This document shows, one piece after another, positions 2,829-10,583 of a stretch of 10,583 nucleotides of DNA (within the stretch, counting starts at the first letter, position 1; the number at the start of each line of letters is the position of its first letter). A program made the position numbers and the translations under genes. The DNA is from Lachnospiraceae bacterium UBA5902. Lineage in GTDB: Bacteria > Bacillota > Clostridia > Lachnospirales > Lachnospiraceae. The notes beneath the pieces are model-generated. The model did not search any database and was not told the origin of the DNA. It saw only the letters and a program-made list of their open reading frames with translations. The stretch spans positions 29,181 to 39,763 of the forward strand of contig DJEI01000055.1 in NCBI GenBank assembly GCA_002431865.1, written 5' to 3'.

Positions 2829-4199
2829 ATGGGGAATAATAAAGCCACAACGATATATGTAATCGGCATGGGGCCGGGAAATGCGGATTGTCTGACCAGA
2901 GAAGCGGTGCAGGCATTGGTACAGGCGACCGTTTGTATCGGTGCTTCCCGTATGCTTCAGATCTGGAAGGACCTTTGTGAAGAAGATGGCCGCGATGTAG
3001 GGCAGACATTTTATAATGCATATAAGGCAGAGGAAATCGCAGATCTGATACGCAATCATGAAAATGAGACGATTGCAGTAGTTTTCTCCGGGGATATCGG
3101 CTTTTATTCCGGTGCGAAGAAGCTTTCGATGATGTTGCGGAAAGATGCGGGGAAAGCCTGCAATATGGTGAGTGATACGACAGGAGTAACCGAGCGGATA
3201 GAGGCAGGTAAAACAATCTATGAGCTTCGTTATATCCCGGGACTCTCCTCGGTGTTATATTTATTTGACAAGCTGGGTGAGACATGGGAGGATGCGGAGC
3301 TTATAAGCAATCATGGCGTCACTGCAAATGTTCCGGCGAAGGTGCGGCATCATGCAAAGGTCGGTACATTGCTTGGCGGTGAAAATCAGGTGGCGGAGAT
3401 CTGCAGACGGCTTACCGAAGTGGGATTGGGAGATATCGCAGTAATCGTTGGAGAGCGGTTGTCATATCCTGTTGAGAAAATCACGCAGAAGTATGCCAAA
3501 AATCTATGTGAGAGCGCATTTGACAAGCTGGCGGTTGCAATATTTATAAATGATCATCCGCAGCCAAGGCGTTTAACGCCGGGAATCAAAGATGAAATGT
3601 TTATCCGGGGAAAGGTGCCGATGACGAAGGAAGAAGTGCGGATGGTTGTAATTGCAAAGCTTGGAATTCAGGAAAGTACAGGACTGTTAAATTATGATCA
3701 GAACAGCGGGCAATGCATGACAAGCAACCCTGCACCGGTTATTTATGATGTAGGAGCGGGAACGGGTTCCGTCTCCATCGAGCTGTCACTCCTGACTGAG
3801 CAGGGAACGGTATATGCGATTGAGAAAAAGCCAGAAGCTGTGGAGCTGTTGTATGCCAACCGAGAGAAGTTCCATGTGGGTAATATGGAAATTCTCGCGG
3901 GCGAAGCAACGGAAGTGATTCCGATGCTTCCTGCACCGACACATGTATTTATCGGGGGAAGCAGTGGAAATCTGTTGAAGATTGTGGAACAGGTCTATAC
4001 AAAAAATCCAGATGCACGTATCGTTGTGACAGCAGTCACGATGGAGACACAGACAGAACTGCTGGCACTGGCAGAAGAGGCAAAGAAGCGGGAAAAGACA
4101 TTTGACATGATTCAGATGGCAGTGACTCGTAGCCGTGCGGTTGGTGCATATCATATGCAGCAGGCAGAAAATCCGGTATGGATTGCGACGTTTGGATAG
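2829..4199 (+). CDS. cbiET: Fused CbiE-CbiT: cobalt-precorrin-7 C5-methyltransferase and cobalt-precorrin-6B C15-methyltransferase (decarboxylating)
   Basis: The protein is a CobL-type fusion. The CbiE half is a SAM-dependent tetrapyrrole methylase acting at C5; the CbiT half methylates C15 and removes the ring C acetate carboxylate. CbiE marks are VIGMGPGN (11-18), FSGDIGFYSG (86-95), IPGLSSV (136-142) and HGVTANVPAK. After a KVPMTKEEVR junction, the Rossmann-type CbiT half carries YDVGAGTGS (306-314), IEKKPEAVEL and FIGGSSGN. Total length, 456 residues, exceeds a typical CobL of about 400-420. Apparent extra material is a loop at about residues 106-130, where DAGK and EAGK recur 19 codons apart, and a linker around residues 288-302 before CbiT. 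The ATG is supported by AAAGGAG ending 10 nt upstream. The flanking spacers, 152 and 105 bp, are long for an operon and repeat-rich. The family call is secure; the insert reading is inference. Confidence 0.95.
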   Translation: MGNNKATTIYVIGMGPGNADCLTREAVQALVQATVCIGASRMLQIWKDLCEEDGRDVGQTFYNAYKAEEIADLIRNHENETIAVVFSGDIGFYSGAKKLSMMLRKDAGKACNMVSDTTGVTERIEAGKTIYELRYIPGLSSVLYLFDKLGETWEDAELISNHGVTANVPAKVRHHAKVGTLLGGENQVAEICRRLTEVGLGDIAVIVGERLSYPVEKITQKYAKNLCESAFDKLAVAIFINDHPQPRRLTPGIKDEMFIRGKVPMTKEEVRMVVIAKLGIQESTGLLNYDQNSGQCMTSNPAPVIYDVGAGTGSVSIELSLLTEQGTVYAIEKKPEAVELLYANREKFHVGNMEILAGEATEVIPMLPAPTHVFIGGSSGNLLKIVEQVYTKNPDARIVVTAVTMETQTELLALAEEAKKREKTFDMIQMAVTRSRAVGAYHMQQAENPVWIATFG

Positions 4200-4304: not shown

Positions 4305-5813
4305 ATGGAACACAGAAATAAGATACAGGTTAATACCCCGCGTGTGATGTTCGCTGCGATGCGGAGCGGAAGTGGAAAAACGACCGTAACATGCAGTGTG
4401 CTGGCGGCACTAAAAAAAGAAGATATAAGAATACAGGCGTATAAATGCGGCCCGGATTATATCGATCCGATGTTTCATCGGACGGTGCTTGGAATCGACA
4501 CCGGCAATCTGGATACCTTCTTTGCGGATGCCGATGCGATTGGTCGTATTCTGGCGCGCGATACGAAGGATGCAGAACTTGTCGTGATGGAGGGCGTCAT
4601 GGGATATTACGATGGCGTTGGCGGCACAACGACGATGGCAAGTTCGTATGAATTAAGCAAGGTCACGAAGACACCGACCATTCTGATCGTGGATGCGAAG
4701 GGCGCGAGTGTCACGCTTGCGGCGACGATCCGTGGAATCATGGAATATAAGAAGGACAGCCGCATTGCAGGGGTAATCTTAAACCGCGTATCGCCGATGT
4801 TTTACAGCCGGATCAAGCATGTGATCGAGACGGAATGTGGTATTCCGGTGCTTGGATATCTGCCGGAAAATGCGTCATTTGCGGTACCATCCAGACACCT
4901 TGGATTGATGCAGCCGGACGAAATGCAGAAGCAGATAGACTGGGTGGAAACGGTTGCGGAAGCTACCCGGAAAACAATCGATATCAATGGAATTCTGGAG
5001 ATCGCGGCACAGGCAGAGACGTTACAGATACACAAGCCGGTTGACGTGAGACAGGATTCCGGGGATATGCAGCAACCGAATGATGGGCGACAAGACCCCG
5101 TCGATATACTGCATGAACTGGCTGACGCGGGACGGGAATCGGCGAACAAGTCCTGCGAGCATGTAGAAGAGAAAGAGGATTACAAGTTCCCATCCGGTTA
5201 TCGTATCGGCGTGGCAAGAGACGCGGCATTTTCTTTTTACTATCGGGAGAATCTGCGCATGTTAGAAGATATGGGAGCGACGCTTGTTTATTTCTCCCCA
5301 TTGGCAGATGCACATGTGCCGGAGGTGGATGCACTGATTTTTGGCGGCGGTTATCCGGAGCTTTATGCGAAGCAGTTGTACGAGAATCAGTCGATGCGCA
5401 CATCTGTCTGGCAGGCGTTGGAATCCGGCATGCCGTGCCATGCGGAATGTGGTGGATTCTTATATCTTGGCAGATCACTTGCCGATGTCGAGGAAAATGT
5501 ATATGAGATGGTCGGTTTTTTAGATGGCGCAGGATTCCGGACAGAGCGGCTGCAGCGATTTGGGTATGTAGAGCTGGCACCGCAGGAAGCGGATGCATTT
5601 GCGGTGAATACGATTCTGCGCGGACATGAGTTCCATTATTGGGACAGCACAGATTGTGGCGATGTCTGTCTGGCGTGGAAACCACTTTCCAAGCAGAAGA
5701 CCTATCCGTGTATGGTGAAGAAGAAAGGGACATTTGCGGGATTTCCACATCTGTATTACGCGGGTGCGGATGCATTTTTCTATGATTTGTTTTGTGGAAA
5801 CAGAGGCAAATGA
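4305..5813 (+). CDS. cbiA: Cobyrinate a,c-diamide synthase CbiA
   Basis: CbiA amidates the a and c acetate side chains of cobyrinate using ATP and glutamine-derived ammonia. The N-terminal half is a dethiobiotin-synthetase-like ATPase with P-loop SGSGKTT (21-27), then KCGPDYIDPMFH and EGVMGYYDG. The C-terminal half is a class I glutamine amidotransferase domain with FGGGYPELY, nucleophile Cys382 in HAECGGFLYLG and His482 in FPHLYY, so both catalytic parts look intact. Length is 502 residues against about 450-460 in the family. The excess sits at about residues 242-293, exactly between the two domains, and is built of degenerate 13-14-residue repeats (PVDVRQDSGDMQQ, PNDGRQDPVDILHE, LADAGRES...). 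This acidic, Gln- and Asp-rich stretch is probably a flexible linker. The gene has a strong GGGGAG site and lies 105 bp after cbiET and 117 bp before cbiC. Confidence 0.96.
   Translation: MEHRNKIQVNTPRVMFAAMRSGSGKTTVTCSVLAALKKEDIRIQAYKCGPDYIDPMFHRTVLGIDTGNLDTFFADADAIGRILARDTKDAELVVMEGVMGYYDGVGGTTTMASSYELSKVTKTPTILIVDAKGASVTLAATIRGIMEYKKDSRIAGVILNRVSPMFYSRIKHVIETECGIPVLGYLPENASFAVPSRHLGLMQPDEMQKQIDWVETVAEATRKTIDINGILEIAAQAETLQIHKPVDVRQDSGDMQQPNDGRQDPVDILHELADAGRESANKSCEHVEEKEDYKFPSGYRIGVARDAAFSFYYRENLRMLEDMGATLVYFSPLADAHVPEVDALIFGGGYPELYAKQLYENQSMRTSVWQALESGMPCHAECGGFLYLGRSLADVEENVYEMVGFLDGAGFRTERLQRFGYVELAPQEADAFAVNTILRGHEFHYWDSTDCGDVCLAWKPLSKQKTYPCMVKKKGTFAGFPHLYYAGADAFFYDLFCGNRGK
5037..5150 (+). 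repeat. Degenerate 39/42-bp in-frame tandem repeat in the cbiA interdomain linker
   Basis: Units start at 5037 (39 bp), 5076 (42 bp) and 5118 (shorter, diverged). The translated pattern is P-x-D-x-R-Q-D-x-x-D-(M/I), clear between units 1 and 2 and weak in unit 3 (LADAGRES). Periods are multiples of three and the array lies between the ATPase and glutaminase domains. Confidence 0.55.
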
Positions 5814-7783: not shown

Positions 7784-8470
7784 ATGTTGCATATTGTATA
7801 TGGCGGAAGTGCCAGCGGGAAATCATCGTATGCAGAAAGCATCGCCATATCCTTACAGGGCGATGGGCGGCTGCTCTACATTGCGACGATGTATCCGTAT
7901 AAATGGAATACGACGGAGATTGATCCGGAGACGATGCAGCGGATCGAACACCACCGCGCGATGCGTGCTGACAAAGGGTTTGATACGGTCGAATGTTACC
8001 GGCATGTGGAACATATTGTGGCGAAGCGGCAGGACGTGTTATTGCTTGAATGTATGTCGAACCTGCTTGCAAATGAGATGTATCTGGAACCGGAGATGGA
8101 TGATGGCGGACTAGCGGAAACAATGTCGGAAGTGGAGAAAGCAGGAGTCGATGGTAATGTAGGTTCCGATGTGGAGAAAACAGGAATCGGTGGTAATGCA
8201 GGTTCCGATATGGCAGAGACAATGTCACCTATAAGCAAGAAAATTGTACAGGCGCTCATTAATTTGTCTGCGCGTGTGCAGGAACTGGTAATTGTCACAA
8301 ATGATGTGTTCTCCGATGGTGGAAGTCTGACCTACGATGAAAGCACGCGGGAATATGTGAAGAATCTGGCAGACATCAACTGTGTACTTGCACGGGAGGC
8401 AGAAACCGTGACAGAGGTTGTCTGTGGGATTCCAGTCATAGTCAAGAAAAATCACCCAATGGGGAAGTAA
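7784..8470 (+). CDS. cobU: Adenosylcobinamide kinase / adenosylcobinamide-phosphate guanylyltransferase CobU
   Basis: CobU phosphorylates the aminopropanol arm of adenosylcobinamide and then transfers GMP to it, giving AdoCbi-GDP, the substrate of CobS. Visible are the P-loop GGSASGKSS (7-15); RIEHHRAMR (53-61), whose His56/His57 align with the guanylylated His46 region of Salmonella CobU; the LLLECMSNLLANEMY segment (87-100); VTNDVFSDGG (171-180); YDESTREYVKNLADIN and a VVCGIPVIVKK tail. The protein has 228 residues against about 170-190 usually. The excess, about residues 105-148, contains two 13-residue copies (VEKAGVDGNVGSD, VEKTGIGGNAGSD) flanked by AETMS on both sides, so an in-frame duplication has enlarged a surface loop. 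The GGGGG at 7773-7777 overlapping the cobT stop serves as ribosome site, so translation is probably coupled. The 3' end may be the source of the repeats downstream. Confidence 0.94.
   Translation: MLHIVYGGSASGKSSYAESIAISLQGDGRLLYIATMYPYKWNTTEIDPETMQRIEHHRAMRADKGFDTVECYRHVEHIVAKRQDVLLLECMSNLLANEMYLEPEMDDGGLAETMSEVEKAGVDGNVGSDVEKTGIGGNAGSDMAETMSPISKKIVQALINLSARVQELVIVTNDVFSDGGSLTYDESTREYVKNLADINCVLAREAETVTEVVCGIPVIVKKNHPMGK
8132..8209 (+). repeat. 39-bp in-frame tandem repeat inside cobU
   Basis: Copies at 8132-8170 and 8171-8209 match at 35 of 39 bases. They are flanked by a shorter direct repeat, GCGGAAACAATGTC at 8114 and GCAGAGACAATGTC at 8213. The insert is rich in Gly, Asp and Glu and keeps the frame. 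Confidence 0.88.
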
Positions 8471-8722: not shown

Positions 8723-9523
8723 ATGATGAAAGCAATCGCAATTGCATTTTCAACTTATTCCAAGATACCAATGCCGCATTTCAAATGGGATCCGAAAGCC
8801 TTGCAGTACAGCATGTGCGCATTCCCATTGGTTGGGGCTGTGATCGGTGCGGGCGAGTTTGCGATCTGGTATCTCTTTGGCTGTGTGTTTCAGTGGTCGG
8901 AAGTCTTTACAGCGGCGTTTCTTACGGGATTCCCAATCCTGATTACAGGCGGTATTCATATGGATGGATTCTTAGATACTGTAGATGCGAAATCTTCTTA
9001 TAAGTCCAAGGAGGAGAAGCTGCAGATTCTGAAAGATCCGCACACCGGGGCATTTGCAATTATCCGCGGCTGCCTGTATTTCCTGATTTATTTTGGATGC
9101 ATGGCGGAGGTCGTGCATGCGCTGAACAGGGAGATACAGTCTGGCACGCTGGCACACGCGATGCGGTTGATGGGTGTGTTCGCGGTAGGATTTGTGCTGG
9201 AACGTGTCTTGTCCGGACTTTCGGTCCTCACATTTCAGAAAGCAAAAAAGGAAGGCATGCTGGCAGATACCGCACGCCTTGTAAATAATCGTTCGAAGGT
9301 GATCATGTTCGTATGGCTTATTGCCTGCATTGCCGCAGGCTGTGTGATACAGCCGGTTGCAGCACTTGTGGCCACAGGCATTGCCATATTGATGTTTTTC
9401 TATTATCGTTTCATGTCGTATCGCACCTTTGGCGGGATCACCGGTGATCTGGCTGGATATTTCCTGCAGATGTGCGAGCTCTGGATGATAATCGGAACCG
9501 TCGTTTTGGTGCATGTGATTTAA
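8723..9523 (+). CDS. cobS: Adenosylcobinamide-GDP ribazoletransferase (cobalamin-5'-phosphate synthase) CobS
   Basis: CobS is the integral-membrane enzyme that joins AdoCbi-GDP to alpha-ribazole (phosphate), the last main step of the pathway. The 266-residue length fits the family. Conserved polar motifs are GGIHMDGFLDTVDA (76-89), DPHTGAFAII (105-114) and GGITGDLAGY (237-246), the Asp/His-rich metal and pyrophosphate sites. Hydrophobic segments include about residues 30-75, 110-130, 150-165, 195-225 and the C-terminal WMIIGTVVLVHVI. Two ATGs are adjacent (8723, 8726); the first is taken because GGAGGAG (8706-8712) is better spaced to it. The gene stands 252 bp after cobU behind a repeat array, so its expression relative to cobTU may differ. 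Its TAA overlaps the stop of the convergent lipoprotein gene through a shared TTAA, leaving no room for a terminator between them. Confidence 0.96.
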   Translation: MMKAIAIAFSTYSKIPMPHFKWDPKALQYSMCAFPLVGAVIGAGEFAIWYLFGCVFQWSEVFTAAFLTGFPILITGGIHMDGFLDTVDAKSSYKSKEEKLQILKDPHTGAFAIIRGCLYFLIYFGCMAEVVHALNREIQSGTLAHAMRLMGVFAVGFVLERVLSGLSVLTFQKAKKEGMLADTARLVNNRSKVIMFVWLIACIAAGCVIQPVAALVATGIAILMFFYYRFMSYRTFGGITGDLAGYFLQMCELWMIIGTVVLVHVI

Positions 9524-10233
9524 TTTCCCGTTGTTTCTGCATCGGTTGTGGAAGCGGTGCTGTTAGCAGACTTGACAAGGTTGATGATCTTGTCCTCAGG
9601 TGTCAGGTATCCGACATCACCGAGCAGAGCAGTTTTCTCTGCCATCAGTTCTTTCACGATGTTTGTTCTATGGGCAGCATCAAAGGTGTCTATGAAATAG
9701 TCTTCCAAGGTTCCTTTCTCGATTGGAACGTATGTAAATCCAGGTTTATTATCCGGAGATACGTAATATCCGCTTGTCTCGCTGTAGCGTAAAGTGTCGA
9801 AGAAGTTTACCGCAATTCCAAAATCTTCAAATTGCCAGCCAATGTACATTTGAAATGCGGAGAACTGGTCATCCGATCTTTCCGGATGCAGGAACGTGTC
9901 AACAAAGTATTTGGTATTTTCTTCGACAGATTTTTCCGCATCATAATCAACGGAGAAGCTGACATAATTCGGGGAACCAAACATTGTTGTCAGCATATCC
10001 ATATAGATATATGCAGGATTTGCATAGTCGTAAGAGTTGTAGACGTCGTTGTAGGCATCTTCGGAAACCCCGAAAGCATCGTAATCGAAATAGGTTTTGA
10101 ACAGTACCCAGAGGTTTTTGTCAAGGGCTTCACCGACAGCCATATCGTCTTCGTCTATCATCAGCTGGGGAAGGGAGTAACTATCCTCATAAAATGATAC
10201 GGAATATGCAGACTCATCCAGTGCATCCTTCAC
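9520..10233 (-). CDS. C-terminal fragment of a split lipoprotein gene, function unknown
   Basis: The frame of 237 codons starts at a GTG (10233-10231) and reads VKDALDESAYSVSF onwards; it lacks a signal peptide. Its first residues repeat the last residues (KDAL) of the ORF just upstream. Deleting one copy of the 14-bp duplication at 10219-10246 joins both into one 343-residue lipoprotein. The GTG overlaps the upstream TGA as GTGA, and an AAGGA created by the duplication lies 6 nt before it, so reinitiation is conceivable, but the product would stay in the cytoplasm. The protein is acidic and rich in Tyr, Phe, Asp and Ser, suggesting a folded extracellular domain, and ends in a Ser/Thr/Ala-rich tail. 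I recognise no family. Its stop overlaps that of cobS. It is probably a broken or phase-variable gene part. Confidence 0.65.
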   Translation of the reverse strand: MKDALDESAYSVSFYEDSYSLPQLMIDEDDMAVGEALDKNLWVLFKTYFDYDAFGVSEDAYNDVYNSYDYANPAYIYMDMLTTMFGSPNYVSFSVDYDAEKSVEENTKYFVDTFLHPERSDDQFSAFQMYIGWQFEDFGIAVNFFDTLRYSETSGYYVSPDNKPGFTYVPIEKGTLEDYFIDTFDAAHRTNIVKELMAEKTALLGDVGYLTPEDKIINLVKSANSTASTTDAETTGN

Positions 10234-10246
10234 AGTGCATCCTTCA
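10219..10246. repeat. Perfect 14-bp tandem duplication that shifts the lipoprotein frame
   Basis: CAGTGCATCCTTCA occurs twice without a gap (10219-10232, 10233-10246). Fourteen is not a multiple of three. On the minus strand the frame ends at a TGA spanning the junction (10232-10230). Removing one copy gives an uninterrupted 344-codon frame over 9520-10565. Confidence 0.95.
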
Positions 10247-10565
10247 GTGGCACGCTGGCTGCACTGTAAGGCATGCTAAAAAGCGTATCCGTCGTAACCG
10301 GGAATGTCAGTCCGTACAGACCGGCACCCTCTGGCAATTCCAGAGTCTCTGCGTCTGAAAGTCCGCGGCTAAATACCCAAGGGCAGTCCTTGTAACTGAG
10401 CTCACTTGAGGAAGCAGATGCTTCAGAAGTATCCGCATTGCTGCTTTCGGTTGTGGCAATCGTGTCGTTCCCGGAGTCCTTCTTCTTGCCACAGCCGGTG
10501 GTAAGGGTAAGGGCGGTTGCCAGCGACAAGCCAAGTGCAAGTGTTTTCATAAATTTTTTCTTCAT
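10230..10565 (-). CDS. N-terminal fragment of a split lipoprotein gene (signal peptide and linker)
   Basis: The 111-residue ORF begins MKKKFMKTLALGLSLATALTLTTGCGKKK: a positively charged n-region, a hydrophobic core and a lipobox-like LTTGC with Cys25, so a lipid-anchored, surface-exposed protein is expected. The Thr at -3 makes the lipobox slightly atypical. Residues 29-55 are a Ser/Thr/Asp/Glu-rich linker common after lipoprotein cysteines. The ordered part starts near residue 57 (YKDCPWVFSRGLSD) and stops after VPLKDAL, where the 14-bp duplication introduces TGA. The start is supported by AAGGCGG at 10575-10581. The promoter is outside the window. The fragment alone holds only about 55 residues of the mature domain, so it is unlikely to fold normally. 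Function of the intact protein is unknown; the gene is convergent to the cobalamin cluster and not necessarily related. Confidence 0.75.
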   Translation of the reverse strand: MKKKFMKTLALGLSLATALTLTTGCGKKKDSGNDTIATTESSNADTSEASASSSELSYKDCPWVFSRGLSDAETLELPEGAGLYGLTFPVTTDTLFSMPYSAASVPLKDAL

Positions 10566-10574
10566 TTTTATAAT

Positions 10575-10581
10575 CCGCCTT
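10575..10581 (-). promoter_or_regulatory. Ribosome binding site of the lipoprotein gene
   Basis: On the minus strand AAGGCGG lies 9 nt before the ATG at 10565-10563, supporting that start over the in-frame Met at residue 6. Confidence 0.55.
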
Positions 10582-10583
10582 TC

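Follow-up and report, generated by a model that had tools for sequence, protein, structure and literature searches.

A divided lipoprotein gene beside cobS

The stretch of DNA analysed here, 10,583 nucleotides in full and called the window below, carries a cobalamin-synthesis cluster, at the end of which a lipoprotein gene lies convergent to cobS. The gene is split by a 14-bp doubling, CAGTGCATCCTTCA, into an N piece and a C piece (Table 1). The doubling is a perfect tandem pair of exactly 2.00 copies; the bases flanking it show no match at offset 14 on either side, that is, no microhomology. It creates the TGA at which the N piece ends, and apart from the duplication both pieces are open throughout. 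A sequence-only reading of this DNA had reported an exact 14-bp repeat that shifts the frame of a minus-strand lipoprotein gene, with 344 clean codons left once 14 bp are taken out. The repeat was found in the sequence as described, and the two pieces, the first with a candidate lipobox near its N terminus, bear out the frameshift; by eye, that terminus looks to be of lipoprotein type. The arithmetic is also right: 1046 – 14 = 1032 bases, or 344 codons including the stop, gives a protein of 343 aa. The intact 343-residue homologue that was to be looked for exists three times over, as the clusters P0001, P0002 and P0005, all of this length. With its exact tandem doubling, a length that is not a multiple of three and relatives that have a single unit, the lesion fits the pattern of frame-inactivating short tandem duplications.

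Table 1. Features of the locus in window coordinates
Feature	Position	Strand	Basis or remark
Perfect 14-bp tandem duplication, two copies	10219..10246	-	repeat search, flank comparison
N piece, 111 aa: putative signal peptide with lipobox-like LTTGC, linker, start of conserved region	10230..10565	-	
C piece, 237 aa: GTG start, remainder of conserved protein	9520..10233	-	
GTGA overlap of restart codon and stop, 4 bases	10230..10233	-	AAGGA six bases upstream, inside copy 1
cobS, convergent neighbour	8723..9523	+	stop codon overlaps stop of lipoprotein gene
Last 18 bases of contig, upstream of lipoprotein start	10566..10583	-	rest of upstream region mostly outside assembly

The N-terminal sequence MKKKFMKTLALGLSLATALTLTTGC of the N piece has an end that looks lipobox-like by eye, and the same LTTGC is found in P0001, P0002, P0003, P0005 and P0007. 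By the general lipobox pattern, this would be a lipoprotein-type N terminus with a putative signal peptide. Neither piece matches a Pfam or NCBIfam family at E 0.001, nothing in the window matched Rfam at gathering scores, and plasmid records gave no match to 9520-10583. Other repeats occur in the window as well: 3.8 copies of a 113-bp unit at 561-985, which share bases with the end of cbiG and with the 5' extension of the cobJ frame, and 2.1 copies of a 39-bp unit, a frame-keeping length, at 8132-8213 inside cobU. The cobU stretch differs, by eye, in two genomes of the genus, G006 and MSJ-21, and the cobT of G006 (L032:14-736, cut at its start) has, also by eye, a frame-keeping insertion that is absent from the cobT of the window.

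One-piece relatives

Searches with the C piece (20 clusters, under a length limit of about 415 aa that leaves out forms of 453 aa) and the N piece (11 clusters, three of them common to both) gave 28 distinct homologous clusters; the 20 were viewed in alignments and the eight new ones from the N piece as sequences. Five clusters of 340-345 aa, P0001, P0002, P0003, P0005 and P0007, are single proteins unbroken across the boundary, and P0011-P0014 (332-335 aa) are more distant one-piece relatives. Internal gaps are present in P0016 (295 aa) and, just downstream of the boundary, in P0006 (413 aa). We noticed that these two, which belong to separate subfamilies, each go without about 40 residues just downstream of the boundary in the window; as each is a single-member cluster, the gaps are possibly chimeric. 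P0004 (356 aa) starts ten residues before the boundary, P0021 departs from the common sequence shortly after it, and eight more clusters at 77% identity or above are short (136-249 aa). Homologues that are naturally two proteins with this boundary, named in the sequence-only reading as what would speak against it, were sought, and since none of the 28 clusters starts or ends at the break, we rejected a naturally split family.

Within the genus, a profile search places the gene body in three of 37 genomes: that of the window, G006 and G035, which we take as Eubacterium sp. MSJ-21 (class Clostridia). Lineages without the gene thus exist. The other profile matches are confined to the signal peptide and linker, about the first 64 positions of the profile, and do not count here; with them the tally comes to 29/37. 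A sequence search also gave G033, with 26% identity over residues 26-149 (E 7.1e-4), at a place absent from the profile search; the DNA search listed 6/37 genomes, of which three matched over no more than 26-43 bases, at the end with the signal peptide. The comparison of strains that had been suggested is clear where it applies: both genus-mates with the gene body have a single 14-bp unit at the site and read the frame through without a stop, and the two-copy state is found in this assembly only.

Relatives can have an extra C-terminal domain of about 110 aa, which brings the protein of G006 to 453 aa; compared with EF-Tu domain 2 it scores 21.3 bits, below the cut-off of 30.3. The genes at L002:1168-2529 and L005:4494-6044, one in each relative, have this domain, and the form in the window does not. 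The gene in the window is the short form, which ends at the stop of cobS, and because P0001, P0002, P0003 and P0005 share the short 3' end, we do not count it as a lesion.

Doublings in the rest of the genome

Perfect doublings were counted in a sample of 19 stretches from this genome, 258,020 of its 2,316,437 bases (11%), at periods of 7 to 120, excluding units that are runs of 1-3 bases. There are 43, and the period exceeds 10 in two of them, the 14-mer and a 24-mer that lies within open frames. As a control, a first-order Markov model run in three replicates over periods 7 to 30 produced 47, 10, 5 and 2 doublings at periods 7, 8, 9 and 10 and none of period 11 to 30. Frames were checked around the 12 doublings of period at least 9, the other 31 being of period 7 and 8. 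In ten of the 12 the period is a multiple of 3; the two others are the 14-mer and a 10-mer in L028, the end point of one long frame on the minus strand. The 14-mer alone is a place where two long frames (100 codons or more) on the same strand, of 117 and 251 codons, end from both sides and none spans.

Restart signal

According to the sequence-only reading, the insertion builds its own restart site. The geometry of GTGA and AAGGA is as it described, and how often such geometry would arise anyway was gauged from 6,804 hypothetical 14-base doublings in seven unbroken genes, namely six of the cobalamin cluster in the window (the names of two, 2829-4199 and 4305-5813, are our own assumption) and the homologue in G006. 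In 2,212 of them (33%) the restored frame acquires a start codon that overlaps the stop, and in 87 (1.3%) a strong ribosome-binding motif accompanies such a start; these doublings are not independent, as neighbours share the next stop, and both features were chosen after the fact. The GTGA overlap is unremarkable, then, and the added ribosome site somewhat unusual.

It may be asked whether the two pieces form a working pair of genes, with translational coupling at GTGA yielding two separate useful products. Besides the overlap and its ribosome site, an AlphaFold model of the unbroken relative P0003 is in keeping with this, as residues 103-127, where the boundary would fall, are of low confidence and separate two parts that are predicted better. 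The model itself is poor (mean pLDDT 56.1); a PDB fold search returned nothing at E 0.001 or better (best 0.026), and a PDB sequence search gave one row only, at E 0.58. The long homologues in the alignments are all in one piece. The C piece has no signal peptide, so a restarted product could not be a surface lipoprotein. We regard such a pair as highly improbable.

Age and constraint

Over all 111 aligned codons of the N piece, dN/dS is 0.29 to G006 and 0.28 to MSJ-21; over all 237 of the C piece it is 0.31 and 0.40. The value between the genes of G006 and MSJ-21, 0.37, is near the 0.28-0.40 of the window. The corresponding figures for cobS are 0.06 and 0.18, so the lipoprotein gene evolves faster than cobS, yet under purifying selection. 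Since the pieces are open, their dN/dS is constrained and the two copies are identical, sequence comparison points to a recent duplication. For the lipoprotein gene of L005, dS against the window comes to 0.78 in the N part and 0.21 in the C part, which suggests a mosaic.

Contig end and broken copies in the family

The assembly is a 2.32-Mb draft (2,316,437 bases) in 111 contigs, 87.7% complete. The window covers bases 29181-39763 of contig C105 (39,763 bases), so that its end is the end of the contig, 337 bases past the repeat and 18 past the start codon. In G006 the upstream region contains an AT-rich low-complexity array of AAAAAGTATA units, and a similar array may have halted assembly at window position 10583.

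This setting raises the question of an assembly fault: the organism itself would have a single unit, and the merging of contig fragments or strain variants close to the contig end would have introduced the second. In favour of a fault are the distance of 337 bases to that end and the array upstream of the gene in G006, which could stop an assembler. The public clusters of the lipoprotein family also include likely chimeras: an antisense reading of the window, G006 and MSJ-21 yields the 8-residue tail of P0023, and one of MSJ-21 yields, weakly, the 4-residue tail of P0026. Odd tails occur even for the conserved cobS next door, whose cluster P0037 follows the sequence of the window over about 210 residues and differs from it thereafter. 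Against this, a 28-base repeat fits inside single short reads, 14 bases is less than the usual assembly word size, and the 258 kb sampled from the same assembly hold no second doubling of period at least 9 that ends frames in this way. We consider a fault unlikely, though it keeps an appreciable chance.

Other broken copies of the gene seem to exist, judging by the tail of P0021 and the first part of that of P0028, which match another sense frame of the locus. The tails of P0009, P0010, P0017, P0020, P0022 and P0024, the longer string of P0025 and the last part of P0028 had no match in the three loci searched. As a control for the frequency of short forms we took a cobS piece of the same relative size, calling short what is below 300 aa for the lipoprotein and below 230 aa for cobS. 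At 75% identity or more, 8/13 lipoprotein clusters are short versus 5/12 for cobS (best 120 of 2,442 matches), and by member sequences 120/233 versus 72/2,166 (cobS among the matches listed), where the 453-aa forms are missing from the lipoprotein counts and contig ends may account for short clusters. The excess could reflect repeated breakage under selection. For the two reasons just given, the hidden 453-aa forms and possible contig ends, we set aside recurrent breakage as evidence for a switch.

Discussion

The picture that we find best supported is a recent, private 14-bp tandem duplication by which the sequenced lineage probably lost the function of an accessory lipoprotein gene. The doubling would have arisen there as real DNA; translation of the N piece would give a short lipoprotein without function, and any C piece arising from restart at the GTG would, for want of a signal peptide, stay in the cytosol. 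One-piece homologues, single-unit genus-mates, dN/dS, uniqueness among the 12 doublings and presence in 3/37 genomes all count in favour of a private loss. Counted on the other side are the nearby contig end in an incomplete, 111-contig draft, the excess of short-cluster members (with 453-aa forms hidden, and cobS taken among matches listed), and the pairing of overlapping start and strong ribosome site in only 87/6,804 hypothetical doublings, which slightly favours a role. The ends of the repeat count there too, since exactly 2.00 copies without microhomology are not the usual signature of slippage. Lacking microhomology at its ends, the duplication could have arisen either by slippage on an imperfect repeat or by the filling in and joining of a staggered break.

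The sequence-only reading had left three options open: an ON/OFF switch of a surface lipoprotein, a fresh mutation or an assembly fault. The fresh mutation fares best and an assembly fault keeps some chance, but we found no positive support for the switch. In a switch, cells of the population would lose the lipoprotein on gaining the second copy and recover it on losing that copy. Reversion is open to a perfect tandem pair, and the target is a surface-type protein; reversible spontaneous duplication is, moreover, on record in pneumococcal capsule genes (described in PMC4022640 and PMC4243769). Yet the repeat is missing from both relatives, none of the 28 clusters has the boundary, and a restarted C piece has no signal peptide. 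Our data show no sign of both states in one population, the locus having one match in its own genome, and so short a pair should revert rarely: for a nine-bp insertion, PMC4022640 gives at most about 10^-5. We therefore hold a switch to be quite unlikely. A variant that combines it with the restart, such that the OFF state is a coupled one giving a short surface lipoprotein and a cytosolic C part from the duplication-made start, would be very unlikely indeed. With no repeat in the relatives and no hint of a mixed population, plain mutation is favoured over a reversible pattern.

Waite and co-workers reportedly described, in 2001 and 2003, spontaneous duplication in the type 3 locus, cap8E/wchA and tts of pneumococcus. 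As in those capsule genes, a short tandem doubling within a gene here inactivates a surface-product gene and is revertible in principle; unlike there, neither reversion nor both states are seen, organism and gene differ, and our locus has a restart signal. For Xenorhabdus nematophila, PMC6786866 lists tandem duplications in lrp, 26 to 116 bp long, among plain loss-of-function mutations; where the isolates tested reverted in phenotype, they never did so by genetic reversion. The likeness is a short tandem duplication acting as a plain loss of function, although the lengths differ from ours and the gene there is a regulator. The present case fits either pattern, the reversible pneumococcal one or plain loss as in X. 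nematophila.

Two further systems are more remote. Microhomology-mediated tandem duplication is known from fission yeast. An instance in ssp1 of a fungus is reviewed in PMC13207564. A local exact doubling with a premature stop is common to these and our locus, whereas microhomology at the ends, their defining feature, is lacking here; with exactly 2.00 copies and no microhomology, the mechanism of the fungi is unsupported. Simple-sequence contingency loci are repeat tracts of short units. They are reviewed in PMC4235727. A change in repeat number would shift the frame at our locus as it does at theirs, but two copies of a 14-mer are not a tract of short units. A repeat tract in related strains, which marks a phase-variable locus, was not found: G006 and MSJ-21 have a single unit, and P0001, P0002, P0003, P0005 and P0007 are unbroken.

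Until both states are seen in reads, a lone frame-breaking doubling in a draft genome is best treated as mutation or assembly slip. If the proportion of 120/233 held with the 453-aa forms counted, the gene would be one often broken in nature, which would suit recurrent loss or variation. And a doubling that proved both real and reversible would carry duplication-driven surface variation beyond the pneumococcal capsule genes, to a lipoprotein of a Clostridia bacterium.
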